DNA from: an uncultured Rhodopila sp.
Lineage (GTDB): Bacteria > Pseudomonadota > Alphaproteobacteria > Acetobacterales > Acetobacteraceae
Length of the DNA: 64,000 bases
NCBI GenBank assembly: GCA_903932145.1
Contig: CAIZFE010000035.1
Span: 1-64,000, forward strand
Reading direction: 5' to 3'
The position numbers and the translations under genes are program-made. The notes under the pieces were generated by a model. The model saw only the letters and a program-made list of their open reading frames with translations. It made no database searches and was not told the origin of the DNA. This document shows positions 4,282-41,500 of the stretch, in pieces. The stretch's first letter is position 1. Every line of letters begins with the position of its first letter.

Positions 4282-6426
4282 ATGGCTGAACGTTCGTTTG
4301 CCCGAGAAGTCGAACTGCTCCGCCTCGGCGCCGGCGCGGAATTCCGTGGCGAGGGCATCCTGGCGATCACCAAAGCCCTGCTGGAGAACGGCGTCGGCTA
4401 TGTCGCCGGCTACCAGGGCGCGCCGATCTCTCATTTGATGGACGTGCTGGCCGACGCCGCCGACATCTTGTCCGAACTCGGCGTCCATTTCGAAAACAGT
4501 GCGAACGAGGCAGCGGCGGCGGCGACGTTGGCCACGTCCATGATGTATCCGATCCGTGGCGCGGTGACGTTCAAGAGCACCGCGGGGACCAATGTCGCCG
4601 CCGATGCGTTATCCAATCTGGCGTCCAGCGGCGTCGTTGGGGGCGCGCTGATTATTTTGGGGGAGGATTACGGCGAAGGCTCCTCCATCATGCAGGAACG
4701 CAGCCACGCCTTCGCAATGAAATCGCAGATTTGGCTGTTGGACCCACGGCCGAATCTGCCGTCGATCGTTAGCATGGTTGAACATGGTTTTGCCTTGTCC
4801 GAAGCATCGAGTACGCCGGTGATGCTGGAGGTGCGAATCCGAGCGTGCCATGTGCACGGCAGCTTCACCGCCAAGGACAACCGGCCGTCGCCGTTTTCCC
4901 TGACTCAGGCGCGCAATGCGCCGGTGCGGGACACTGGTCGGATCGTTCTGCCCCCGGCGAGTTATGCGCAGGAGCGGGACAAGATCGCTCGCCGCTGGCC
5001 GGCCGCTGTTGCGTATATCCAGGCGCATGGACTGAACGAATTCTTCGACGGCGAGCTGTCCGAGGTTGGCATCATCCTGCAGGGCGGCATGTATAACAGC
5101 GTCATGCGGGCGCTGATGCGGATGGGGCTGGCGGATATCTGGGGCGCGTCGCGCGTGCCGCTTTATGTGCTGAACGTCACGTATCCGATGGTTGATCCGG
5201 AGGTTGTTCGTTTCTGCACCGGCAAGCGTGCTGTGATGGTAGTCGAGGAAGGCCAGCCCGACTTTATTGAACAGGCGTTGTCGCGAATCTTGCGCGAAGC
5301 CGATGTGCCCGCTCGGCTGTTCGGCAAGCGGGTATTGCCGATGGCCGGCGAATATACCGTCGCGGTGCTGGAAGACGGGGTACGTGGTTTCTTTACTGCT
5401 GCCGGCCTGGCGGAAGAACTGACACCACCGGCCAATGCCGCCGCCATGCTGGATGAGCCGGACGTGCGTGCATTGGCCTCGGTTGTGCCCGCGCGGCCGC
5501 CCGGCTTTTGCATCGGCTGTCCGGAACGTCCGATTTTCTCCGCAACGAAACTGGTTGAGAAGGAGCTTGGGCAGTTTCATATCGCGGCGGATATTGGCTG
5601 CCATTTGTTTTCGATTTTGCCGCCGTTCAATGTCGGGGCGACGACGATGGGGTTCGGGTTGGGACCGGCGTCGGCCTCGGCGTTGAATGGGGGCGAGGGT
5701 AAGCGGGTGCTATCGTTCCTCGGAGATGGCGGGTTTTGGCACAACGGGTTGAGTTCCAGCATTGCCAACGCTGTGTATAACAAGAGCGATAACGTTACGA
5801 TCATAGTGGACAATCATTACGCCGCGGCGACCGGTGGACAGAACGTGCCGTCTTCGCGGGCGTTGGTTGGCCGGCGCTCCACGGGGCACACCATCGCTAA
5901 GGCGATACGCGGTGTCGGGGCACGATGGGTCAGGCAGATCGACCGGACCTACGACGTGGCCCGCATGCGCGACACGTTGCGGGAGGCGCTGACGACGGCG
6001 ACTCGCGGGCCAAAGATCATCGTTGCGTCGTCAGAGTGCATGTTGAACCGTCAGCGCCGCGAAAAGCCACTGATGCAGGCGGCGGTGAAAGCCGGCAAGC
6101 GTGTCGTTCGCCCCAGGTTCGGCATCGATCAGGATGTCTGCACCGGCGACCATGCCTGCATGCGACTTTCCGGTTGCCCGTCATTGTCGTTGAAGTACAC
6201 AGGCGAAAAGCTGCGCGATGACCCCGTCGCGGTGGTGGACAATTCCTGTGTCGGCTGCGGACATTGCGGTGAGGTTTCACATGCCGCCGCGTTGTGCCCA
6301 TCGTTCTACCGAGCCGACATTGTCGAAAACCCTGGCTGGTCCGATCGCGTTCTGGCGCGTGTCCGCGGTGCGGTGATCGGCTTCTTGCAGCGCCGGCGCG
6401 CTGCTCGTCATTGGATGCCGGCGTAG
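4282..6426 (+). CDS. iorA: Indolepyruvate-type ferredoxin oxidoreductase, alpha subunit
   Basis: A 714-aa thiamine-diphosphate enzyme of the indolepyruvate/2-oxoacid:ferredoxin oxidoreductase superfamily, which turns a 2-oxoacid plus CoA into acyl-CoA, CO2 and reduced ferredoxin. The N-terminal pyrimidine-binding domain covers about residues 15-200. The TPP motif GDGGFWHNGL...NVTIIVDN is near residues 480-512. The C-terminus carries cysteine clusters (CTGDHAC..., CVGCGHC...C) for Fe-S centres. ATG 4282 follows a purine-rich site. It abuts iorB with no gap. The presence of CoA ligase and ring oxygenase genes downstream suggests that the natural substrate is an arylglyoxylate-like 2-oxoacid rather than indolepyruvate itself (inference). 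Confidence 0.88.
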   Translation: MAERSFAREVELLRLGAGAEFRGEGILAITKALLENGVGYVAGYQGAPISHLMDVLADAADILSELGVHFENSANEAAAAATLATSMMYPIRGAVTFKSTAGTNVAADALSNLASSGVVGGALIILGEDYGEGSSIMQERSHAFAMKSQIWLLDPRPNLPSIVSMVEHGFALSEASSTPVMLEVRIRACHVHGSFTAKDNRPSPFSLTQARNAPVRDTGRIVLPPASYAQERDKIARRWPAAVAYIQAHGLNEFFDGELSEVGIILQGGMYNSVMRALMRMGLADIWGASRVPLYVLNVTYPMVDPEVVRFCTGKRAVMVVEEGQPDFIEQALSRILREADVPARLFGKRVLPMAGEYTVAVLEDGVRGFFTAAGLAEELTPPANAAAMLDEPDVRALASVVPARPPGFCIGCPERPIFSATKLVEKELGQFHIAADIGCHLFSILPPFNVGATTMGFGLGPASASALNGGEGKRVLSFLGDGGFWHNGLSSSIANAVYNKSDNVTIIVDNHYAAATGGQNVPSSRALVGRRSTGHTIAKAIRGVGARWVRQIDRTYDVARMRDTLREALTTATRGPKIIVASSECMLNRQRREKPLMQAAVKAGKRVVRPRFGIDQDVCTGDHACMRLSGCPSLSLKYTGEKLRDDPVAVVDNSCVGCGHCGEVSHAAALCPSFYRADIVENPGWSDRVLARVRGAVIGFLQRRRAARHWMPA

Positions 6427-27240: not shown

Positions 27241-30200
27241 GTGATAGGAATGAAATTGGTCCACCACATCGGTGCTCGCCGGGGCTTCCTGTGGTCTGGA
27301 CGCATGGCCACGCTGCTGAACACGGTTATTGTCGCTGTCATTTGTGCGGCCACGGGTCTGGCGATCTGGTTCAACCACGAGGCGGCGTTTGAACAGCATC
27401 AGCGCGGCATGACCAGCATGGGCGGGGTATTGGCGGAACAGACGGCACGCTATGTGCAGGTGATCGATCTGATTGTGCAAGAAGTTCAGACCCATACTGA
27501 GGCGATGGAGATCGAAGGCGTCGCGGACCTCGCAAGCCGGCTCGAAGGGCCGGAGATTAAGGCCTACCTGGCTGAACGTGTCAGGAATGTCCCGCAGGCA
27601 AACGCCATCGTTCTGATCGGGCGTGACGGCACGACGTTGAACTCGTCACGGGAGAGAGCCGTCCCCGCGGTCAATTTGGCCAATCGCGATTATTTCAGGT
27701 ACTTCCAGACTCACAACGATCCTGGCTTGTTCATCGGATCGCCATCGATCGGCCAAGTTACCGGTCGATTGAACCTGTTCTTCGCCCGACGCATCAGCGG
27801 ATCCGATGGCCGCTTTCTGGGGCTTGTCCTGGGCGTGGTGGACATCCGTTATCTGGGGGAACTCTACCACACCGCCAGCGAGCATCTGGGCGAAGCGGTT
27901 ACACTATTGCGCCATGATGGCACCATGCTGATGCGCTATCCGAATCCAGAGGCAGCCATTGGCGTGAAGTTGCCAACAAGCTCGGCGTGGTATGACCGGG
28001 TCGCCCGAGGCGGCGGCATTTACCTTACGGCTGGTGTTCTCGACGGTATCCCAGGTGTCGTCTCGGTGCATCCGTTGCACGATTATCCATTGGTCGTGAA
28101 CGTGTTGTTGCAAAAAGCAATCGTCTTCGCCGAATGGCGCACGCAAACGGTCTATATGATCGCGTTTGCTCTGCTTGCCACGCTCGCCTCCACGGCCCTG
28201 TTTATCGTGCTGGCCCGCGATTTCCGCCACCAGGTCGTGCAGAACGCAAAGCTGCGGGAGTCGGCGATGCGGTTGAGCGAAAACCAGCAGATGCTACGCT
28301 CCTATGCCGAGATGTCATCAGATTGGTTCTGGGAGCAGGATACGGATTTCCGCTTCACAACCGAATCAACCATCCCCTTCATGAATGCCCGCAACATCAC
28401 CGGCAAGACACGCCGTGAACTCGCCGATTCGGCGATGCGCGAAGAAAGATGGACCGCCCATGAGGCTGATTTAGCGGCCCGCCAACCCTTCCGCGACTTT
28501 CGCTGGGACAGGATAGGGTCGGACGGCGCCCTCCGCTTCATCAGCACGAGTGGCGATCCTGTCTTCGATCGGCATGGAGTCTTTGCCGGCTATCGCGGGA
28601 CCGGTCGCGACATCACCGCGGAAGTCCGTGCGAATGCCCGACTGGCCGAGGCCAATCGCGAGTTGCGGCTTGGCAGCCAGCAAATCGCGGCGGTGTTAGG
28701 TAATATAACTCACGGCGTCTGTCTGTTCGATGGCGCACATCGGCTGGTGGTGTGGAACCGCCGCTACGTTGAGATCTATAATCTGCCACCCGAGGCGGCC
28801 CAATTCGGCTGTTCACTTCAGGACACGTTTCGATACCGGGATCTAACGGGGACCGCGGCTGACATGTCACCGGCCGAGCATCAAGCTTGGCTTGTCAGAC
28901 TCGGCGCAGCCACCCAGCCGTCGAGCCGGGTCGTGACGCTCAAAAACGGCCGGGTCGTCATGATTCACCATCAACCAATGGCCGGTGGCGGCTTCGTCGC
29001 GACCCATGAGGACATCACCGAACGGCAGAAGGCGGAAGCCAGCCTGGCGTTCATGGCCCAACATGATGCCCTGACCCGCTTGGCCAACCGCGCCTTGTTC
29101 AACGACCGGCTCGCACAAGCCATCGCCCTGCTCGGGCGTGGCACCCAATTCGCTCTGCTGTGTCTGGACCTGGACCATTTTAAAATGGTCAATGACACGC
29201 TGGGCCATCCGATCGGCGATGGGTTGCTGCAAGGCGTGGCGGACAGGTTACGCGCGTGCGTGCGTGAGGGAGACACCGTGGCCCGTTTGGGTGGCGACGA
29301 ATTTGCCATCATCCAAACAGGCGTTGCGGATACCGGCGACGCGGAGATTCTCGGCGCCCGGATCGTCGAGGCCTTTCGCGCGCCCTTTGACGTGATGGGT
29401 CACCAAATTCCGGCCGGGATCAGCGTCGGGGCAACAGTGGCGCCCGACGATGGCGCGTCCGCGGAAAAACTGCTCAGGAACGCCGATATCGCGCTGTATT
29501 CCGCGAAAACCGACGGCCGTGGCACGGTTCGGTTTTTCGAGCCGGAGATGGACGCCCGCATCATCAAACGTCGCGCCATGGAACGCGACCTCCAGGATGC
29601 CATCGTTCGCGACGAGTTCGAAATCTACTACCAGCCGCTGATCAATCTGGCGGCCGGCACGATCACCGGGTTTGAAGCATTGCTACGCTGGCACCACCCA
29701 ACTCGTGGGATGGTCCCGCCAGACGAATTCATCCCCGTCGCCGAAGAAACGGGTTTGATCGTCGAGATCGGCGCCGGGGTGCTGCGCAAGGCCTGCTTCG
29801 AGGCGGAGAATTGGCCGGCGGACATCAAGGTTGCGGTCAACCTGTCACCGGTGCAGTTCAGAAAGCCGAACCTGTCCGCCACTGTCGAGCAGGCGCTGAC
29901 TGCCTCGGGCCTGCGTCCGGAGCGGCTGGAACTGGAGATCACGGAATCGGTGTTGCTGCATGACAGCGCCGGCACGTTGACGGCCCTGCATGAGTTTCGC
30001 GCCATGGGTGTGGCCATCGCCCTGGATGATTTCGGCACCGGATACTCATCGTTGAGCTATCTGCGCAGCTTTCCGTTCGACAAGATCAAAATCGACAAAT
30101 CCTTTGTGCGTGACCTGATGACGAACAAAGAGTCCATGTCGATCGTTCGCGCCGTCGCCGGATTAGGGCAAAGCCTGAACATCAAGATATTGGCGGAGGG

Positions 30201-30363
30201 CGTTGAAACATTGGAGCAGCTAGAAGCCTTGAAGCAAGAAGGCTGCACGGAAGTGCAGGGTTACCTTTTCAGCCGCCCGATGCCCGCCGGCGAGGTGCCG
30301 GGGTTGATCGAACGCTTGAGATGTATCGATCAGTTTCTATACTCAAAGACGCCGATAATCTGA
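27241..30363 (+). CDS. Membrane sensor with PAS, GGDEF and EAL domains
   Basis: A 1040-aa c-di-GMP signalling protein (ATG 27250 is an alternative start). An N-terminal helix (about 25-43), a periplasmic double-CACHE sensor (NRDYFRYFQTHNDPGLFIGSP) and a second helix (about 305-325) are followed by two PAS regions. The GGDEF domain has an intact GGDEF at residues 684-688 and an RxxD inhibitory site (REGD) five residues before it. The EAL domain has EAL at 812-814, and later DDFGTGYSSLSYL. Both making and breaking of c-di-GMP are possible by motif. It stands alone and converges with the giant PEP-CTERM gene. Confidence 0.93.
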   Translation: MIGMKLVHHIGARRGFLWSGRMATLLNTVIVAVICAATGLAIWFNHEAAFEQHQRGMTSMGGVLAEQTARYVQVIDLIVQEVQTHTEAMEIEGVADLASRLEGPEIKAYLAERVRNVPQANAIVLIGRDGTTLNSSRERAVPAVNLANRDYFRYFQTHNDPGLFIGSPSIGQVTGRLNLFFARRISGSDGRFLGLVLGVVDIRYLGELYHTASEHLGEAVTLLRHDGTMLMRYPNPEAAIGVKLPTSSAWYDRVARGGGIYLTAGVLDGIPGVVSVHPLHDYPLVVNVLLQKAIVFAEWRTQTVYMIAFALLATLASTALFIVLARDFRHQVVQNAKLRESAMRLSENQQMLRSYAEMSSDWFWEQDTDFRFTTESTIPFMNARNITGKTRRELADSAMREERWTAHEADLAARQPFRDFRWDRIGSDGALRFISTSGDPVFDRHGVFAGYRGTGRDITAEVRANARLAEANRELRLGSQQIAAVLGNITHGVCLFDGAHRLVVWNRRYVEIYNLPPEAAQFGCSLQDTFRYRDLTGTAADMSPAEHQAWLVRLGAATQPSSRVVTLKNGRVVMIHHQPMAGGGFVATHEDITERQKAEASLAFMAQHDALTRLANRALFNDRLAQAIALLGRGTQFALLCLDLDHFKMVNDTLGHPIGDGLLQGVADRLRACVREGDTVARLGGDEFAIIQTGVADTGDAEILGARIVEAFRAPFDVMGHQIPAGISVGATVAPDDGASAEKLLRNADIALYSAKTDGRGTVRFFEPEMDARIIKRRAMERDLQDAIVRDEFEIYYQPLINLAAGTITGFEALLRWHHPTRGMVPPDEFIPVAEETGLIVEIGAGVLRKACFEAENWPADIKVAVNLSPVQFRKPNLSATVEQALTASGLRPERLELEITESVLLHDSAGTLTALHEFRAMGVAIALDDFGTGYSSLSYLRSFPFDKIKIDKSFVRDLMTNKESMSIVRAVAGLGQSLNIKILAEGVETLEQLEALKQEGCTEVQGYLFSRPMPAGEVPGLIERLRCIDQFLYSKTPII

Positions 30364-30501: not shown

Positions 30502-33500
30502 CTAGGAAGCGATCGCCAGGGAACCCGTGAGCCGCCGCCGGCGCAGGGTGCGCAGGAACGCGACCGCCATGCCGAACAGACCGATGCTGGCGGGCTCCGG
30601 CACGTCGGTCGAAGCCAGCGTGATCGACGCGGACAACGCATCCGCCGAGTCGGTCCCGCTGTAGATCACCGGCGCGGTGATCGGGTCGAACAGGTTTTGC
30701 GCCAGCAGGTTCTGACCGCCCGCGGCCGCGGCTGCATCAACCGTGCTGCTGTCGTTGGCACCCGACGCATAACCCACCACGAAATTCACCCCGAACGCGC
30801 TGTTGACCCCGGTCATCAGGAACGACACGTCCAGCGTGACCAGGCCGTTAACCGACGTCGTGGCCAGCGAATCCACCGCGTTACTGAAGTCCGAGGTCAG
30901 GCTGGAGGCAGAACCCGACAGCGACTCCGACATCAGGTTGACGCCGTAGGCTTTGACCGAGAACTCCACATCCGTCGGCGAACCGCTGCCCTGTGCATTC
31001 AGCAGTCCGAGAACGAGATGGGAGGAACCGGCGCTCAGACCCAACTGAGCCAGGTTGACGGTTATGGAGACATCGCCACTGCTCGTCGAGCTGGTGGCCG
31101 ATCCGACGTCGCTGCCGCCGATCGCCCCGAACGCCAGTACGCCGGACCCGGATGTGGTGAGCATCGACGAGACCGCGGTATGGCCGCTCATGGCGCTGGC
31201 TGCGTTGGCGGCGGACGGTGCCGCGGTGGCGGCGGAGAACGCCTGATAGCCCAGGTTGACGGTCGACATCCCGGCCGAGCTGCCGCCATTGGCCTGTGAC
31301 TGCGACGTGATCCCGCTGCCCGCTCGGACAGTCTGCGAGGTCGCGGAGACTGTCACGTTGTCGCTGCTGCTGTTGGCTACGGCCATGCCGGTGGAGCCGG
31401 TGTTGCCGTTGGTGACCGTGTTTGCGGTCGCCTGTTGGCCGGCCGTGGTCGTGGCCACGGATTTCGCCTGCGCCACGCCCTGGACCCCGCCGCCGGTTGC
31501 CCCGGTGCCGCCGGTCGCCGTGGCATTCGCGTTGGCGGTCCCACCGGAGGCAGCCATTGCTGCCTGGCTGAATGCGCCGCCGCCGTTGGCGCCCGAGCCG
31601 GTGCCGTTGCCAGTCCCTCCCGTGCCACCGGTCGCAGTGGTGTTCACCGTCCCGGTGGTCGCGGTGCCGCCCGCCTGCGCGGTGCCGGTGCCACCAAGTC
31701 CACCATTGCCGTTGGCGATTCCGGTGCCCCCGTTGCCGCCCGTGCCCCTGCCGGTCGCGTTCACGTTCGTGCTGGTGGAGATGGTCTGGTAGGTTGAGCC
31801 GCTCGCACCCGCACCGCCGTTCTGCGCTGAACCGCCAGCAATGCTGCCGGCATTGCCACCAGAGCCACCGTTCGCGGCAAGGCTCGTAACTACGACTGCG
31901 GACGTGGTATCCGCGAGGCCGAGGGCGAAGGAAGCCGCCCCGCCCTGGCCTGCCACGCCACCGGCGCTTCCACCGCCGGTGCCGCCGGTAGCTGTGCGGG
32001 TTAGATTAAGCGTCCCCGCGGTCGCGACAGAGGTGGTTGTTTCAGTCTGCAACGCTGCTCCGCCTGATCCGCCGTTGGCGAAATTGCTCCCGGCGCCCCC
32101 GGCTCCGCCATGTAAGGTCACGCTGGAGATAGCGCCGCTGGCCAGGCTGGCCGTCTTGGCCGCACCGTTGGCGCTGCCGCCAGATCCGCCGCTGAAGCCA
32201 GACCCGATACCTGCGCCACCCGTTCCGCCGGACACCGTCACCGACGCGTTGGACTGCTGGCCGGATGAGCTCGTCGTAGTCGCCGAACTGGCCCCCAAAG
32301 CCCCGCCGCCAGCACCACCGTTTCCCGTCGTGGTGGCAGCGCCACCCGTTCCGCCAACGATGGTCAGCGAATTCGTTGCGGCCTGCGTGGTGGACGAAGC
32401 CGAATCGGTCCCCAATGCCGATCCGCCGGCGCCACCGGTTCCGCCACTTGCGCCATTGCCGCCGAGACCGCCGGCAACATATGAATTCGTTGCGGCTGTG
32501 CTGGCGCTGGACAAGGTTGTGTTCGTCTCGATGGCCACCCCGCCGTTGCCGCCGGCTCCACCATTCGCACCGGTGCCGCCGGTGCCGCCGGTCACATTGT
32601 CCTGCACATTGGTGGATCCGGCGGTTGCCGATACGGTCTGACCGATCGTGATGGCACCGCCCGCCGCCCCGGGGTTGGCGGCGCCGCCGGTGACGGCCGC
32701 CGGTGATCCACCTGCGCCGCCGACACCTTGGATCAATGTGTTGACGGTGCTGGAAGTACTGTCGATGAATCGCGAAGTGGCGGCAACCGAGCCGCCGAGC
32801 CCGGCGGCGCCGCCACCCGTGGTGCTGCCGCCCGCGCCTCCGATAGGGGCATCCCCGTTTTGGTTCAGGTTGAGGAACTGCCGCAGATTCAATGTGCCGC
32901 CGTTGGTGGTACCCGCTGCGATGTTGGCAGCATTGATATTGGCGCCGGCGCCGCCAGATGCGCCACTGGCGCCAGCCCCGCCTACGCCGGCGTAGAGGAC
33001 GGACCACGCCGTTGCGGCATTGACGCCGGTGACAGTGGAGGAACTGAGCGCGGTACCGCCGGTGCCTCCCGTAAAGCCAACGCCGGTTCCGGTGCCGCCG
33101 GCGCCCCCTGTTGCGGTCACAATCGACTGGGGTCCCGCGCCGGTGGTGGTCGTGCCCGTTGTTGCCGAACCGTTCGACAACGCCGTTCCGCCGGTGCCGC
33201 CATTGCCCGTCGTGGTGGCGCTGCCACCCATTCCGCCGCGGACGGTTACCACAGCCGTTGCGGCCTTCGTGGTGGATGACGCCGAATCTGTTCCCGACGC
33301 CGAGCCGCCGGTGCCCCCTGTTCCGCCATTTGCGCCATTGCCGCCATGACCGCCTAACACTTCCGAAATCGTTACGGCAGTGCCGGCGCTGGACGAGGTT
33401 GTGGTCGTCTCGGTGGCCCCACCGCCGATGCCGCCGGCCCCACCATTCGCACCGGTGCCGCCGGTGCCGCCAGTCACCTTGTCCTGCACGTTGGTGGATC

Positions 33501-34962
33501 CGGCGATTGCCGATACGGTCTGGCCGATCGTGATGGCACCGCCCGCCGCCCCGGGGTTGGCGGCACCGCCGGTGACGGCCGCCGGCGATCCACCTGCGCC
33601 GCCGACACCTTGCATCGATGTGTTGACGGTGCTGGAAGTACTGTCGATGAATTGCGAAATGGCGGCGACCGAGCCGCCGAGCCCGGCGGCGCCCCCACCC
33701 GTGGTGCTGCCGCCTGCGCCGCCGGTAGGGGCGTCCCCGTTTTGGTTCAGGTTGAAGAACTGCTGTAGATTCAATGTGCCGCCGTTGGTGGTACCCGCTG
33801 CGATGTTGGCAGCATTGATATTGGCGCCGACACCGCCAGATGCGCCGCTGGCGCCAGCCCCGCCTACGCCGGCGTAGACGACGGACAACGCCGTTGCGGC
33901 ATTGACGCCAATGGCGGTGGAGGAACTGAGCGCGGTACCGCCCGTGCCGCCGGCATTGCCAACGCCGGTTCCGATGCCGCCGGCACCGCCCGCTGCGGTC
34001 ACGATCGATCGGGGTCCCGCGCCGGTGGTGGTCGTGCTCGTGGTCGCTATACCGGTCGACGAAGCGGTGCCGCCGGTGCCGCCATTGCCGGACGTACCCG
34101 ACGATCCGCCGGTGCCCCCGGCGACGGTAGCGGTGAGTATCGAATTATCGACACCGTTGGCTGTGGAGGAGCCGGTCGCGACGCCACCCGAGCCGCCATT
34201 GAAGCCACTGCCGGCGCCCGATCCGCCTGCGCCGCCGAACACATAAACGACCGAATTGGGCGTTTGGCCAGTGGCGCCCGCCGTCGCCGAACCGGCGCCC
34301 GAGGCCGTTCCGCCGGCGCCGCCAATGCCCGTCGTGGTCGCGTTACCGCCCGCTCCGCCGCGGATAGACAGCGACGTTGTTGCCGCCTGGGTGGCGGATG
34401 ACGCCGAGCCGGTTCCGGCTGCTGCGCCACCGGTCCCGCCGGTTCCACCCGTTACACCGTTGCCGCCGCCGCCGCCGGTGCCGGTCGCGTTGGCGGCGGC
34501 TGCGCCCTGGGTATTGGCAGCCGTCGCGTCCGCCTCAGCCGCGCCGCCGATACCGCCGTTACCGCCAGCATTGGTTGTGCCGGTCCCACCGGCCGCCCCA
34601 CTGCCGCCCGTTCCGCCGGTGGCGGTTGAGTTGGCGGTGCCGGTCCCGCTGCCAGCCAGACTGGTGTTCGAGGATGCTGTGTCGGCACTGCCCGCACCAC
34701 CGGTCCCACCAGGGTTGCCGGCTGCTCCGGTACCACCTGTACCTCCAGTACCACCCGCCGCATTCGCGGTATTGGTCGCGTCGGTCGGGGTGTTGGCGGT
34801 GGCGCTGCCGGCGGTGCCGGTTCCTCCCGTGGCACCCGTGCCAGCGGTCGCGTTGGCCCCCGCGGTGCCGTTGTTGGTCACCGAAGCGGCTGAGGCGGGA
34901 TTTGCGGCCGCCAACATCGCCATGAACGCGGCGGCACTGAAACCTGTGGTCGGGCGGGTCAT
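30502..34962 (-). CDS. Giant Gly/Ala/Thr-rich PEP-CTERM surface protein
   Basis: A 1486-aa secreted protein. I start it at ATG 34962 (MTRPTTGFSAAAFMAMLAAANPASA), a clean signal peptide with AxA cleavage; the open frame above this has only TTG/GTG starts. Residues about 35-1180 are GGxGG-type repeats rich in Gly, Ala, Thr, Ser and Asn, and I see no cysteine. Residues about 1250-1440 look globular (GAIGGSDVGSATSSTSSGDVSITVNLAQLG). The C-terminus is a PEP-CTERM signal: VPEPASIGLFG, a hydrophobic helix and RRRR, which an exosortase would process. No exosortase gene is in the window. The protein contains an 882-base tandem duplication. It is preceded by a BLUF-TetR regulator gene on the same strand. 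Confidence 0.88.
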   Translation of the reverse strand: MTRPTTGFSAAAFMAMLAAANPASAASVTNNGTAGANATAGTGATGGTGTAGSATANTPTDATNTANAAGGTGGTGGTGAAGNPGGTGGAGSADTASSNTSLAGSGTGTANSTATGGTGGSGAAGGTGTTNAGGNGGIGGAAEADATAANTQGAAAANATGTGGGGGNGVTGGTGGTGGAAAGTGSASSATQAATTSLSIRGGAGGNATTTGIGGAGGTASGAGSATAGATGQTPNSVVYVFGGAGGSGAGSGFNGGSGGVATGSSTANGVDNSILTATVAGGTGGSSGTSGNGGTGGTASSTGIATTSTTTTGAGPRSIVTAAGGAGGIGTGVGNAGGTGGTALSSSTAIGVNAATALSVVYAGVGGAGASGASGGVGANINAANIAAGTTNGGTLNLQQFFNLNQNGDAPTGGAGGSTTGGGAAGLGGSVAAISQFIDSTSSTVNTSMQGVGGAGGSPAAVTGGAANPGAAGGAITIGQTVSAIAGSTNVQDKVTGGTGGTGANGGAGGIGGGATETTTTSSSAGTAVTISEVLGGHGGNGANGGTGGTGGSASGTDSASSTTKAATAVVTVRGGMGGSATTTGNGGTGGTALSNGSATTGTTTTGAGPQSIVTATGGAGGTGTGVGFTGGTGGTALSSSTVTGVNAATAWSVLYAGVGGAGASGASGGAGANINAANIAAGTTNGGTLNLRQFLNLNQNGDAPIGGAGGSTTGGGAAGLGGSVAATSRFIDSTSSTVNTLIQGVGGAGGSPAAVTGGAANPGAAGGAITIGQTVSATAGSTNVQDNVTGGTGGTGANGGAGGNGGVAIETNTTLSSASTAATNSYVAGGLGGNGASGGTGGAGGSALGTDSASSTTQAATNSLTIVGGTGGAATTTGNGGAGGGALGASSATTTSSSGQQSNASVTVSGGTGGAGIGSGFSGGSGGSANGAAKTASLASGAISSVTLHGGAGGAGSNFANGGSGGAALQTETTTSVATAGTLNLTRTATGGTGGGSAGGVAGQGGAASFALGLADTTSAVVVTSLAANGGSGGNAGSIAGGSAQNGGAGASGSTYQTISTSTNVNATGRGTGGNGGTGIANGNGGLGGTGTAQAGGTATTGTVNTTATGGTGGTGNGTGSGANGGGAFSQAAMAASGGTANANATATGGTGATGGGVQGVAQAKSVATTTAGQQATANTVTNGNTGSTGMAVANSSSDNVTVSATSQTVRAGSGITSQSQANGGSSAGMSTVNLGYQAFSAATAAPSAANAASAMSGHTAVSSMLTTSGSGVLAFGAIGGSDVGSATSSTSSGDVSITVNLAQLGLSAGSSHLVLGLLNAQGSGSPTDVEFSVKAYGVNLMSESLSGSASSLTSDFSNAVDSLATTSVNGLVTLDVSFLMTGVNSAFGVNFVVGYASGANDSSTVDAAAAAGGQNLLAQNLFDPITAPVIYSGTDSADALSASITLASTDVPEPASIGLFGMAVAFLRTLRRRRLTGSLAIAS
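32306..34069 (-). repeat. Tandem duplication, 2 x 882 bases, in the PEP-CTERM gene
   Basis: Bases 33188-34069 and 32306-33187 align in register with an offset of exactly 882 bases (294 codons) at several checked points. Both copies encode YAGVGGAGASGASGG, NINAANIAAGTTNGGTLNL, a QNGDAP segment, FIDSTSSTVNT, AVTGGAANPGAAGGAITIG and GSTNVQD. Copies differ by scattered substitutions, so the event is not very recent. Boundaries are approximate. Confidence 0.8.
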
Positions 34963-35412
34963 GAAGGGCACTGGCGAGTTCCTTTGCGATGGCGTGTGGA
35001 AACGCACCAATTTTGCCTCGTTTGTGCAAAATTGATACTATTGCGCTCATTTTAGGGATTATTTCGACAGATAACAGGAAAATTACTTGGACTGAGTCAG
35101 TTTTAAATCCTGATTTGTTCTCAAAAACCAGTTGAGGGTTCAGTAGCGACCGTCGATGCCTCATCGTCATCGGGCCTGTTCCCAACCGCACCAACCTGGA
35201 TGGTGACGCCAAAGCGCCCTCAATGTCCGCTGGCGTGATCGATCTTCCGCCGCGACTTGTCGTTGCTGGCGGACTTTGTGGACAGGACGGGCCGCAAATC
35301 CAGGGCGAGCGTGACTGGCCTTGCTCACTGTCATCGGTCGCCTGGCAGTGCGTACCATCAACCCGGGCGCCCAGACGCCGCTGCCTCGCGCGGCCCCCCC
35401 CCCCCGGCGGAC
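34963..35412. other. 450-base regulatory gap upstream of the PEP-CTERM gene
   Basis: There is no gene. Bases about 35015-35140 are strikingly AT-rich compared with the surroundings and probably hold the promoter of the giant gene. The end nearest the BLUF-TetR gene holds a run of 12 C (35394-35405). I could not fix -35/-10 boxes with confidence. Confidence 0.5.
35394..35405. repeat. Homopolymer run of 12 C
   Basis: Twelve consecutive C lie 7 bases beyond the stop codon of the BLUF-TetR gene (G-tract in its transcript). Long G/C tracts slip easily during replication. Its place after the stop means length change would not alter that protein but could affect mRNA 3' structure. Confidence 0.9.
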
Positions 35413-36426
35413 CTAGTCCGGCGCGGCGCGCAACGCACTCAGCAACATGCCCGCCATCCGGTCCTGAACCCGCTCCGTCTCCATCGAGTCAGGGTCGTTC
35501 AACGCGATCATCTTCATCGCGCTCGCGAAGGCCGCCAGCGCCGAGGCCACCACCACCTGGTTCGGCACGGGCTCGTTGCGGGAATATCCACGCTTCATGG
35601 ACGCGCGAACGTCCGCGGCGAGGTTGAACAGGTCCTCGTAGGGCACCTCGTGATAATGTCGTAGAAAGTGCAGGGCCAGCTTTTGCGGCATCCTGTCTCG
35701 AGGCCAATATTTCACCATCGTCATTTGAATGACGCTGTCTACGAACTGAGCGTTACTGGTCATTGCATGGTTCGCGAGGAAATCGCGGAACACGCCGAAG
35801 TGGTGCAACTGCCTGCGGCGAACAAAGGTCCGCAGCAGGTCGCCTACTCCGCCGAAATAGCGGTACGCGGTTTGACGGCTGATATTGGCGTTGCTGGCAA
35901 CGTCCTCCATCACCAGATCCTTGCCGCCGTCGCGGACCAGCAGTTGGAAGGCGGACGCAAACAGGCGGTTGACGGTTGTCATCGCCCGCCTCTGGTTCGG
36001 CGCCACGCGGATCTGATCGATGGCGAGGTTCGTCTGTATCGGGCTGCCAAAGTCTTCCTCGGGGGATTTCCGCAGCGCCTCCACCCGAGCCATGAAGGTG
36101 GCGATGCCTTGTTGGACCGCGTCGGGCAGGTCGGGCGGGGCGGCGTAGGCCATCGGCTGCCCGGGGAATGCGCGGTCCATAACGGGCCGGTCGAGAATGA
36201 CCAGCAGATCGGAATGCCGCAGATCCGCTTCGATCGAACGATAGAGGTCCTCTACGACCAGATGCTCGCCTTCGAGGACCTGGAGAAAATGTCCGTCACT
36301 ATAGCTCAGTTGTCCCGTAACGCCGATTGCCTCGTTTTTGGCTCGGGTGCTCGCCAGCATGGCCAGGATATCCTGGTTACTCCAGCGTATGGGGGTCGTA
36401 CTGCGAAAGACGAGGCAGCGGAGCAT
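35413..36426 (-). CDS. BLUF-TetR fusion transcription regulator
   Basis: A 337-aa protein with two parts. Residues 1-95 align throughout with BLUF flavin photoreceptor domains: Asn31, Gln49 in HFLQVLEG, Met92 and FPG-x-PM. The photochemically essential Tyr (as in AppA Tyr21) is Phe7 (CLVFRS), and the conserved Trp is Gln90. Residues about 145-202 form a TetR helix-turn-helix (MEDVASNANISRQTAYRYFGGVGDLL), followed by a helical ligand/dimer domain. It would be a one-component DNA-binding regulator in the cytoplasm that may bind flavin. It lies between trpA and the giant PEP-CTERM gene, all on the minus strand, so that gene is its likeliest target (inference). Confidence 0.85.
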   Translation of the reverse strand: MLRCLVFRSTTPIRWSNQDILAMLASTRAKNEAIGVTGQLSYSDGHFLQVLEGEHLVVEDLYRSIEADLRHSDLLVILDRPVMDRAFPGQPMAYAAPPDLPDAVQQGIATFMARVEALRKSPEEDFGSPIQTNLAIDQIRVAPNQRRAMTTVNRLFASAFQLLVRDGGKDLVMEDVASNANISRQTAYRYFGGVGDLLRTFVRRRQLHHFGVFRDFLANHAMTSNAQFVDSVIQMTMVKYWPRDRMPQKLALHFLRHYHEVPYEDLFNLAADVRASMKRGYSRNEPVPNQVVVASALAAFASAMKMIALNDPDSMETERVQDRMAGMLLSALRAAPD

Positions 36427-36488: not shown

Positions 36489-37304
36489 TTAGCGCCGAAC
36501 CGCCGCCGCCAATCCTCGAACCTGATCCAACACCTTTTCCACTGCCCCCGGCAACGCTTTTCCATCGGCATCGAGGTTCGCGGATAGCGTATCGATCAAG
36601 GCCGAGGCCACGACGGCCGCATCGGCAATACGCGATGCCGCACCGGCTTGCTCCGGAGTGCGTACGCCGAACCCGATGGCGATCGGCAGGTTGGTCGCTT
36701 TGCGCAACCGAGGGATCGCCGCCTCCAAATGCTCGGACGACGCACTGCGGGTGCCGGTGATGCCGGTGATGCTGACGTAATAGACGAACCCGGAACTGCC
36801 ATTCAGGACGTGGGGCAGGCGCTCGTCATCAGTGGTGGGGGCAATCAGGCGGATGAAGTCCAGGCCGTTGGCGTTGCTGAAGGGCAGCAGCAGGTCGGCT
36901 TCCTCGGTCGGCAGGTCAACGATGATCAGGCCGTCCACGCCGGCCTTGGCGGCATCGACGCAGAAGCGTTCGGGGCCGTAGGACAGGATCGGGTTGAGAT
37001 ACCCCATCAGCACGACCGGCGTCGCGTTGTCGTCCACCCGGAATTCACGCACCATGGTCAGGATGTCGGCGACTTTGACCCCGGCGATAAGGCCGCGTTT
37101 CGCGGCCGCCTGGATGATCGGGCCGTCGGCCATCGGGTCGGTGAACGGCATGCCGATCTCGATCAGGTCGGCGCCGGCGGCGGGCATGCCGCGCAGCAGG
37201 GCCATCGAGGAGGCGTGATCTGGGTCCCAGGCTTCCAGGAACGGAATCAACGCGCCCCGGCCCTGGCGTTTCAGCTCGGCAAACCGAGCGGCGATGCGGC
37301 TCAC
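36489..37304 (-). CDS. trpA: Tryptophan synthase alpha subunit
   Basis: A 271-aa subunit that cleaves indole-3-glycerol phosphate to indole. Catalytic Glu49 and Asp60 ([17 protein letters not shown]) fall at the same numbers as in E. coli. [14 protein letters not shown] and [11 protein letters not shown] are also present. An oddity: the segment that is usually TAGDP reads FLEAWDPD, with Trp26 where Gly is normal. Its ATG overlaps the trpB stop by 4 bases. Confidence 0.95.
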
Positions 37305-39322: not shown

Positions 39323-39852
39323 GTTCCTTATATGTTCCTATCAAAATCAAAGAGAATTTGCAAGAAAAATATCTCCCGGAACCAGGAAACGCGGCGGTTC
39401 GGCTACAAATGCACGGGTATGTCGCAACGGTCGCCCACCGCGCTGGATTCCGGGAAAGCGAGGCTAACGGAACCCGAAACCGCCGGCCGATGCCTGACCG
39501 ATGGTCGTGCGCGGGACCGTATCCCAATGGACCGTATCCCAATGGGCCGGGTCATTAAAGCGCGCGGGTCTCATCCGGCACCGGATCGCCGTGTGCGATC
39601 AAATCCGCGACCACACGACACATCAGGGCGGCAACCCGCATGGCTTTGAACCCGATCGGTTCTTCGTATTGCTGAAGTGCCGGGACATTGCCCCCGTGGC
39701 CGTTGCGATTGACGCGACAGCCTCCTGATCGTTCCGGTGGTGCCTGATTGGCGTTGCTAAGCGACCGGAGGCAGCCATCAAGAGGAGCGGGGCGTGGTTC
39801 TGAACATCGATAGCCTCGGTTACTATATGTGCGAAAGATAACATGTGCACAA
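39323..39852. other. 530-base gap, no recognised gene
   Basis: Several short frames cross this gap but none shows a family signature. It contains an exact 15-base tandem direct repeat (gaccgtatcccaatg at 39515-39529 and 39530-39544). Just before the next gene the sequence atgtgc occurs twice, 16 bases apart, in an AT-richer promoter-like segment near 39826-39850. Confidence 0.5.
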
Positions 39853-40311
39853 ATGGATGATGCCATGACGGACGGCACAGCATTCCTCTCGGTTCGGGTA
39901 CCCGAAAGTGTCCGCAATCGCGGGAAAGCGGTCGCGGCCCAGCGGGGTGAGCGTGTCCAGGATCTCGTCGGTGGGCTGATCACACGCTTTCTGGAAGAGG
40001 CCGAGCGGCAGCCGCCTCAACTCGGGCCTGTTCTTGGGCGGTTGCGGGCGCTGGAGACGCCACTGCGCGCCAGGGGGATCGACGCGCTTTTTGTGTTCGG
40101 TTCGGTGGCGCGCGGCGACGCCCGGCTTGACAGTGACGTGGACGTGGCGGTCGATTTCACGCCCGGTACCGAGGTTTCGCTGTTCGAGATCGTCCGTATC
40201 AAGGAAGAATTGGAGGCCGCGCTCGGACATGCGGTGGATATCGGCGAGCGTGCGACGATGACCGAGCGGGTTGCCGCCTCGGCTGGGCGCGATCTGGTGC
40301 GGGTATTCTGA
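39853..40311 (+). CDS. mntA: RHH-MntA fusion antitoxin (nucleotidyltransferase)
   Basis: A 152-aa protein (ATG 39853; ATG 39865 also possible). Residues about 8-48 look like a ribbon-helix-helix DNA-binding domain (FLSVRVPESVRNRGKAVAAQ, then DLVGGLITRFLEEAE). Residues about 65-150 form a minimal nucleotidyltransferase with GSx10DxD (FGSVARGDARLDSDVDVAV). Ordinary MntA lacks the N-terminal domain; the fusion would let the modifying antitoxin also act as the operon's repressor (inference). Its stop overlaps the HepT start by 1 base (TGATG). Confidence 0.82.
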   Translation: MDDAMTDGTAFLSVRVPESVRNRGKAVAAQRGERVQDLVGGLITRFLEEAERQPPQLGPVLGRLRALETPLRARGIDALFVFGSVARGDARLDSDVDVAVDFTPGTEVSLFEIVRIKEELEAALGHAVDIGERATMTERVAASAGRDLVRVF

Positions 40312-40640
40312 TGGTCGGGGATATCGGGGATCGATTGAAGGACATGCAAGCGGCGGCGAGCGATTTACTCAATTTCGTTGGAGACATGGAAACGGACGCG
40401 TATCACGCACTACCGCATGCCGACCGGATGGGTTATCGGGCGGTCAAGAACGCCCTGATCGAACTCGGCGAGGCCGCCAAGACCATTCCCGACGAAATTC
40501 GGCGACGATATCCCGAGGTGGACTGGAAAGGGTTCTCCGGCCTGCGGGACATGATCGCCCATCGGTATTTTGGTATCGATACAAGCAAGCTGTTGCCAAT
40601 CATCAAGACGGAGGTGCCTGGATTGCTTTCAGCGGTTTAG
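40311..40640 (+). CDS. hepT: HepT-type ribonuclease toxin
   Basis: A 109-aa HEPN protein with the catalytic RX4HXY motif intact (RDMIAHRYF). The middle segment ALIELGEAAKTIPDEIRRRYPEVDWKGFSGLRD is typical of HepT (cited here only in outline). HepT cleaves RNA and is silenced by AMP added to the motif Tyr by MntA. Together with the preceding gene it forms a complete module, unlike the frameshifted one at 22914-23570. Confidence 0.88.
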   Translation: MVGDIGDRLKDMQAAASDLLNFVGDMETDAYHALPHADRMGYRAVKNALIELGEAAKTIPDEIRRRYPEVDWKGFSGLRDMIAHRYFGIDTSKLLPIIKTEVPGLLSAV

Positions 40641-40885
40641 AGGGAACTTGGCTCGATCCGCGGCGGTGGTCAGGATAACAGTGATAAACCGGAGTGACCT
40701 GAAACGCCCGCGGAGGCCGTCAACTCATTGTTCCGGCGTTAACGGGCCATCGTGGACCACGGCGAACCGCAACCGCCTGAGATTGCCAGCGGTTCGACGG
40801 CTCCTCACGCCCAAACCTAAGCGATTGTTTTCTTTTTGTAAGGAGTGTAATTGGCTCGTACCACATGAGATCGACAGGAGCCGAA

Positions 40886-41500
40886 ATGAGCCTGCGTAAA
40901 TGTTTGCGCGAGCCGATCGCAGAAATCGAGATTGCCGCTCACCGCCTCAACGATGCGGTGTCCGCTCATCTGCGAGGCGAACGGGACGTTGCCGAAGTGC
41001 TTTTGCACCAAGCTAACGATCAGGTGGTCCGGGATTGGCTCTACTCAGTTTGGGGCAAAGAAACCCAATACAACCGACGGTTCCGGGTGCTGAATAATCC
41101 GCCTGAGGTGCCCAAAGATCAACGTGCCAAACCGCGAGACGCCACGAACGAGACAAAACGCGCGATCCATATGAGAGATGGATACTATTGTCGGTTCTGC
41201 AAGATCCCGGTTATTCGCGGCGAAGTGCGGTCACTTATCCACAGAGAATATCTTGAGGCGGTGCCTTGGGGTACAACAAATGACTCCCAGCATGCTGCGT
41301 TCCAGTGCATGTGGGCGCAATATGATCATATTCTGCCGCATCAACGTGGTGGCTCCAGCAGCATCGAAAACGTGTACTTGACGTGTGCGGCCTGTAACTA
41401 CGGCCGAGGGAGTCATTTACTTGAGGAGCTCGATTTAATTCATCCCGGCCTTCACTCGGCACGCCTCGGGAATTGGGACGGCCTCCAGCGATTTCGATAG
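40886..41500 (+). CDS. HNH endonuclease
   Basis: A 204-aa protein starting at ATG 40886, with caggag 5 bases upstream. The C-terminal HNH fold has zinc-binding pairs (CRFC and CAAC) and the core QYDHILPHQRGGSSSIENVYL, with His and Asn of the motif. The N-terminal about 85 residues are helical and unassigned. It is near the HepT/MntA module but not coupled. Such solitary HNH proteins are often linked to defence or mobile DNA; nothing here shows which. Confidence 0.8.
   Translation: MSLRKCLREPIAEIEIAAHRLNDAVSAHLRGERDVAEVLLHQANDQVVRDWLYSVWGKETQYNRRFRVLNNPPEVPKDQRAKPRDATNETKRAIHMRDGYYCRFCKIPVIRGEVRSLIHREYLEAVPWGTTNDSQHAAFQCMWAQYDHILPHQRGGSSSIENVYLTCAACNYGRGSHLLEELDLIHPGLHSARLGNWDGLQRFR

Follow-up and report, generated by a model that had tools for sequence, protein, structure and literature searches.

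BLUF photoreceptors such as AppA, PixD, BlrB, BlsA, OaPAC/bPAC and BluF/BlrP1 share one fold, a common pattern of Asn, Gln and His residues and the N-terminal position of the sensor domain. Their photochemical Tyr has been called strictly conserved throughout the BLUF proteins (PMC9486806), and Phe has been placed at this position in engineered variants, including TePixD Y8F (structure 8i98), AppA Y21F/Y56F/W64F and OaPAC Y6F. A 2014 survey counted 64% of the BLUF proteins as short and 34% as combined with EAL; it reports that HTH effectors occur quite often among LOV and BLUF proteins taken together, and its main text does not mention TetR (PMC4844311). In Escherichia coli, BluF is reported to antagonise the repressor BluR in a biofilm-modulating pathway (PMC3509220). 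TetR-type one-component repressors (UidR, FadR, MtrR and others) combine a helix-turn-helix with an all-helical C-terminal domain. Only one paper in the literature searched paired a BLUF domain with the TetR family, and this paper deals with CryB. The sequence-only reading knew of no characterised BLUF-TetR protein; among the titles listed in our searches there was likewise none, and they covered mostly non-subscription literature, so that absence is unproven.

We analysed a stretch of 64,000 nucleotides from an uncultured Rhodopila sp. (contig CAIZFE010000035.1 of assembly GCA_903932145.1), hereafter the window. It encodes a protein with the following features.

35413..36426, minus strand: BLUF-TetR regulator gene, 337 aa, ATG start, stop codon TAG at 35413-35415
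36142..36426, minus strand: BLUF domain, residues 1-95 (Pfam, beta-alpha-beta-beta-alpha-beta fold in AlphaFold2, Foldseek)
36001..36141, minus strand: linker, residues 96-142 (helix at 102-120; AlphaFold2 pLDDT below 50 at 117-139)
35416..36000, minus strand: TetR-type region, residues 143-337 (profile, AlphaFold2, Foldseek)
35836-35958, minus strand: helix-turn-helix, about residues 157-197, within the TetR-type region
36406..36408, minus strand: codon 7, TTT, Phe at the photochemical Tyr position (alignment and codon reading)
36157..36159, minus strand: codon 90, CAG, Gln at the semi-conserved Trp position (alignment and codon reading)

The window protein has the fold, the Asn/Gln/His pattern and the N-terminal sensor position of the BLUF photoreceptors, but it lacks both Tyr and Trp and its effector is of the TetR type. 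Compared with the TetR one-component repressors, it has the same helix-turn-helix and all-helical C-terminal domain and adds an N-terminal BLUF domain and a linker. It looks like a fused version of the E. coli pair, likewise connecting a BLUF input to a DNA-binding repressor; BluF and BluR, however, are two proteins, a working photoreceptor and a MerR-type repressor, whereas here the photochemical residues are lost and a TetR-type region is part of the same chain. The engineered Tyr-to-Phe mutants carry the same substitution, but the window form is natural and additionally lacks the Trp.

The fused architecture had been proposed from the sequence, and it was borne out. The Pfam BLUF model (PF04940) scores 73.5 bits over residues 3-92 (E=1.5e-20), its cut-off being 25. 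TetR_N (PF00440) matches residues 157-197 just under its threshold (22.5 bits against 24; E=9.6e-5), and the NCBIfam TetR models all stayed far from their own cut-offs (22.6 bits against 224.9 for the best). A profile built from the TetR halves of the nine full-length BLUF-TetR members matches 136 distinct PDB sequences at E<=0.01, with solved TetR regulators among its matches and UidR as the best of these (E=3.2e-10). The AlphaFold2 model, computed from a 54-row alignment with four full-length rows, has a mean pLDDT of 85 and a pTM of 0.60. A predicted structure lacking the BLUF fold in residues 1-95 had been named beforehand as refuting, and the claim survived this test, because AlphaFold2 gives the BLUF fold at the N-terminus, with block pLDDT values of 87-98 over residues 1-100. 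The second part (residues 143-333) is modelled as all-helical, consistent with a TetR-family fold with an N-terminal helix-turn-helix and a C-terminal ligand or dimerisation domain; the linker is of low confidence at 117-139. Searched as a whole with Foldseek, the model finds its best PDB matches in AppA, OaPAC and TePixD, among them the engineered Y8F form 8i98. The TetR half alone gave a best E of 4.7e-4, with only three matches at E<=0.001 and TM-scores of about 0.3-0.7, and TetR-family proteins made up most of the best 50 titles. By homology and predicted fold, the window protein is a member of the BLUF domain family. The name "BLUF photoreceptor" is unsuitable for it, since it has Phe7 in place of the Tyr.

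The pocket Asn and Gln are present (Asn31, AAC; Gln49, CAG), and these are presumably the positions that contact the flavin. Asp68, Arg70 and His71 are also kept in the pocket region, and Met92 (ATG) is present, so that the retained residues named from the sequence were read correctly. We then compared the protein at 19 positions, chosen because at least 85% of the 173 other BLUF domains share the residue there. It departs at only two of them, 7 and 90, exactly the replacements noted beforehand; if two departures fell at random among the 19, this pair would be hit with a chance of 1/171. In 184 distinct BLUF domains from the fetched loci, the Tyr column holds 180 Tyr and four Phe. Three of the latter belong to BLUF-TetR proteins (window, G005:C7 and G090:C184). 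The fourth, L111, was rejected as an apparent frame artefact, a normal BLUF start being present there in another frame, and it was left out of the 19-position count. Phe thus occurs in 3/10 BLUF-TetR domains against 0/173 others (Fisher 1.2e-4, L111 left out; 4.6e-4 if it is counted as 1/174), in a sample that is non-random and largely drawn with patterns near the Gln motif or by similarity to the window protein. All 87 non-TetR BLUF domains from genomes of the window's family have Tyr. The Trp is present in 166 of the 171 non-TetR domains with a residue there (L111 included), and its loss accompanies Phe: two of the three Phe members lack it (Gln, Ala) against 5/177 Tyr members (p=0.004; L111 and three rows gapped at position 90 were dropped).

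A sequencing or assembly error at codon 7 could also account for the Phe, as TTT is one base from TAT. We consider this barely credible: Tyr codons (TAT or TAC) do reach Phe in one base step, but Gln90 would need two further changes (TGG to CAG), and Phe, encoded as TTC, is also found in the G005:C7 and G090:C184 members, from genomes of two other genera.

Published mutants indicate what the two losses would mean. BLUF proteins with Phe at the Tyr position are reported as photoinactive in every case (PMC9486806), in agreement with the earlier inference that the canonical photocycle is lost. OaPAC Y6F is photoinactive, yet its flavin still undergoes photoreduction, for which W90 is the donor that remains (PMC9486806). 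Because this donor is a Trp, the window protein, having lost Tyr and Trp alike, should lack the photoreduction route as well; therefore no BLUF photocycle and poor photoreduction are to be expected. AppA Y21F/Y56F/W64F is described as photoinactive and flavin-bound; a mutant additionally lacking W104, and thus all four Tyr and Trp donors, still held the flavin, whose lifetime of 3.8 ns falls within the free-flavin range (PMC7005313). Flavin retention is not assured, since the Y7A and W92A proteins of BlsA were largely insoluble, the Y7A exchange also strongly altering the light response in cells (PMC6695109). Light sensing by another route, a slow redox switch driven by flavin photoreduction from a different donor, would draw on the reported photoreducibility of Tyr-to-Phe mutants (PMC9486806) and could use, for example, Tyr42, which aligns with Tyr56 of AppA. 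But the donor left in OaPAC Y6F is the very Trp that the window protein lacks, and the AppA flavin without its four donors behaves much like free flavin by its lifetime, which makes this route very improbable.

The reading that we favour, tentatively and at somewhat less than an even chance, is that of a one-component repressor whose BLUF pocket keeps its flavin without a photocycle and reports a light-independent signal to an adjacent gene for a PEP-CTERM protein. The N-terminal domain would probably descend from a working blue-light sensor. With Tyr7 replaced by Phe and Trp90 by Gln, both nearby electron donors would be gone while the conserved pocket residues are kept; the hydrogen-bond photocycle would then be impossible and the flavin poorly photoreduced. 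The pocket would most likely still bind flavin and signal its redox state or occupancy. Alternatively, within the same reading, the repressor may be locked in one state.

The BLUF-TetR proteins as a group bear on whether this pocket is still in use. Met92 is replaced in 6/10 of them against 8/171 other BLUF domains. Such drift at signalling positions would fit a pseudo-receptor, in which the BLUF domain has neither flavin nor signalling and serves as a dimerisation or stability module, while the helical C-terminal domain of the TetR half reads an ordinary small-molecule ligand. TetR proteins usually carry a ligand pocket of their own, which adds to the appeal of this explanation. Against it, all ten BLUF-TetR proteins retain Asn31, Gln49, Glu52, Asp68 and His71, and 17 of the 19 conserved positions in the window protein are more than the drift of an unused pocket predicts. 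We therefore regard a pseudo-receptor as rather unlikely. The seven Tyr members of the group depart at one to four of the 19 positions, and other BLUF domains at 0.68 on average. The two other Phe members depart at five and four positions, so their losses are less selective than that of the window protein.

The BLUF-TetR protein of the window is not unique but belongs to a small family, of which we found ten genes in 8/397 genomes of the window's taxonomic family. This count includes the G090 gene, the C-terminal part of which is truncated, apparently by a frame break, and leaves out G167, where a BLUF ORF with a stop is followed by the contig end. The eight other full-length members are 26-33% identical to the window protein. 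At E<=1e-25, the 18 other genomes of the genus that were listed gave no BLUF-TetR match, and the class and phylum samples (385 and 398 genomes) contained no full-length BLUF-TetR besides that of the genome itself; the other matches there, in four and seven genomes, cover the BLUF half only. None of the 14 matching plasmid records covers 80% of the query. Pattern scans of genome contigs, which were non-exhaustive, gave no relative when started from the single sequence; with a four-sequence alignment, 80/100 loci were kept, and three of them hold a full-length BLUF-TetR gene, on the MAG contigs of G110, G241 and G020 that had been found before. Several further BLUF genes were seen on the way. 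At L044:315-740, an ORF of 142 aa is 41% identical to the BLUF half of the window protein over 112 residues and stops about where the linker would end, near a contig end, possibly a split BLUF-TetR gene. L102 and L114 each have two BLUF domains close together. The window's own genome carries three other BLUF genes outside the window, all with Trp and, where readable, with Tyr in two of the three, as well as a further BLUF match with two in-frame stops that appears broken (G000:C101:119980-120171).

The Tyr position was checked across these relatives, as had been suggested: seven of the ten keep Tyr, and three, in three genera, have Phe. Because most members keep Tyr, the ancestor of the Phe form was probably a one-component regulator that sensed light. 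The tree requires three changes to Phe, although it is poorly resolved, with long branches and most forks unresolved. A single clade of all Phe forms gave a p-AU of 0.042, and a clade of the window protein with G005:C7 alone was not rejected (0.107). A single origin is thus weakly disfavoured by the sequences, and the natural Phe forms perhaps arose three times.

The genes around the regulator provided a candidate target.

30502..34971, minus strand: Gly-rich PEP-CTERM protein of about 1,490 aa, probable target, sorting motif at 30535-30606
27241..30363, plus strand: dCache-like/PAS-GGDEF-EAL c-di-GMP protein, in the same 10.7-kb stretch
36489..37304, minus strand: trpA, directly upstream of the BLUF-TetR gene with a 62-base gap, preceded by trpB

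The PEP-CTERM match of the window lies 0.5 bit under the Pfam cut-off (20.2 against 20.7 bits) and above that of TIGR02595 (18.2 against 16); in the genome search it scored 27.5 bits, above the cut-off. An exosortase is encoded in the same genome (E=2.1e-62). The protein is rich in Gly, Thr and Ala; no DNA tandem array was found in its gene, nor any other Pfam domain. With neighbouring genes called by a length and GC heuristic, a PEP-CTERM gene adjoins BLUF-TetR at five of the ten loci (window, G241, G020 on both sides, G089 and G090), at distances of 185-762 bases and in varying arrangements (same strand, convergent and divergent). The Poisson chance of finding it at five or more of the ten loci is 1.3e-5, for a link that was noticed post hoc and is uncorrected for other families that could have stood out instead. 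This estimate uses all PEP-CTERM matches up to E=1 per genome (26 in the window's own genome, 58 in G020, 45 in G241, 21 in G089, 34 in G090, 32 in G110, four in G005 and two in G015) and spans of 6.9-11 kb, and it ignores clustering. The background is, if anything, overcounted, since 6/14 control genomes also have matches at this loose limit, none of them above the cut-off. In G015, which has two BLUF-TetR copies, a giant RTX protein comes after each of them; these RTX proteins share 74% identity over their best segment, and the pair therefore probably reflects one duplication. At the remaining 3/10 loci, G110 and both of G005, neither PEP-CTERM nor RTX was among the immediate neighbours scanned. 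Taken together, these neighbourhoods suggest that the targets are surface or matrix proteins. A PAS-EAL gene is present at the G090 locus, as a GGDEF-EAL gene is at that of the window. Two TetR-only relatives were also inspected: one in G090 (G090:C33; L046:2700-3476 and 4384-4761), without BLUF, is separated by about 0.9 kb from a further PEP-CTERM gene, and for one in G313 a simple motif search found no PEP-CTERM within about 10 kb. The literature searched contained nothing joining BLUF with exosortase.

If the regulator represses this gene, an operator may be expected before it, and one palindrome is a lead.

35008..35034, no strand: weak candidate operator, perfect 9+9 inverted repeat with a 9-base spacer, CAATTTTGC-N9-GCAAAATTG

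It lies within 34963-35412, the stretch singled out beforehand for DNA sites, 36 bases ahead of the GTG (34971) at which the PEP-CTERM gene probably starts, and is the sole perfect copy in the genome, with four other sites at three mismatches. Its score was reached by 2/60 shuffles, in a control that discriminates poorly, because the best palindromes in 10 of the 19 intergenic stretches scored in this way were reached by at most 3/60. The three strongest palindromes, one in G241 and two in G020, look like terminator hairpins. No common motif was seen by eye across the BLUF-TetR loci, and scans for sigma-70-like promoters and for terminators found nothing between 34900 and 36800. The palindrome is thus a weakly predicted operator.

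To follow the history of the locus, we located trpA in 11 of 12 genus relatives searched. The gene after it in these relatives is one that we take to be accD: it follows directly or after one small gene in 5/11, after a GGDEF-EAL insertion in one more, and is absent from the fetched stretch in the other five. In the window, 10.7 kb with the BLUF-TetR, PEP-CTERM, GGDEF-EAL and rhodanese genes separate the two. At the corresponding position, BLUF-TetR had no match in any of the 11 relatives. The PEP-CTERM protein was unmatched in their stretches as well, which is weaker evidence because the protein is of low complexity and was masked; a different PEP-CTERM gene occurs in L233, one of the 11 stretches. 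The GGDEF-EAL gene was unmatched at the junction in 10/11 relatives, and the eleventh has a different GGDEF-EAL gene there (L229:2890-6114, 44% identical), hinting at an insertion hot spot. The genes between trpA and accD look acquired in the window, perhaps together. On the other side of the trp genes, between trpB and an anthranilate synthase gene, a nucleotidyltransferase and a HepT-like gene (39829-40640, plus strand) form a probable toxin-antitoxin module, adjoined by an HNH endonuclease gene (40865-41500).

An accessory gene that arrived only recently might also be heading for decay under relaxed selection, with no sensing function left. The absence from the matching place in the 11 relatives, the apparent frame break in the related G090 gene and the more scattered departures of the two other Phe members all go in this direction. 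But the window ORF is intact, its codon-position GC (0.65/0.41/0.78) is of a coding type like that of the adjoining trpA and trpB, and both of its departures hit the two electron donors. Decay is thus improbable for the window gene. The favoured reading remains that of a TetR-family one-component regulator, most likely a repressor, which would act on the adjacent gene for a PEP-CTERM surface protein.

More broadly, the BLUF-TetR proteins may form an unrecognised one-component class devoted to surface or matrix proteins, with three known members turned into dark flavin sensors by removal of their donors, an idea that we put forward with rather more doubt than belief. The Tyr is gone in all three Phe members and the Trp also in two. 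The adjacency of BLUF-TetR and PEP-CTERM genes is a new observation, and it proposes a type of regulator for exosortase-sorted surface proteins. The compact one-component layout might provide repressors that are light-controlled (Tyr forms) or light-blind (Phe forms). With natural Phe forms in one fused architecture, a light-independent flavin or redox function of BLUF becomes testable. If the idea is true, these proteins would be a natural test of what function remains once the photochemistry leaves a photoreceptor.
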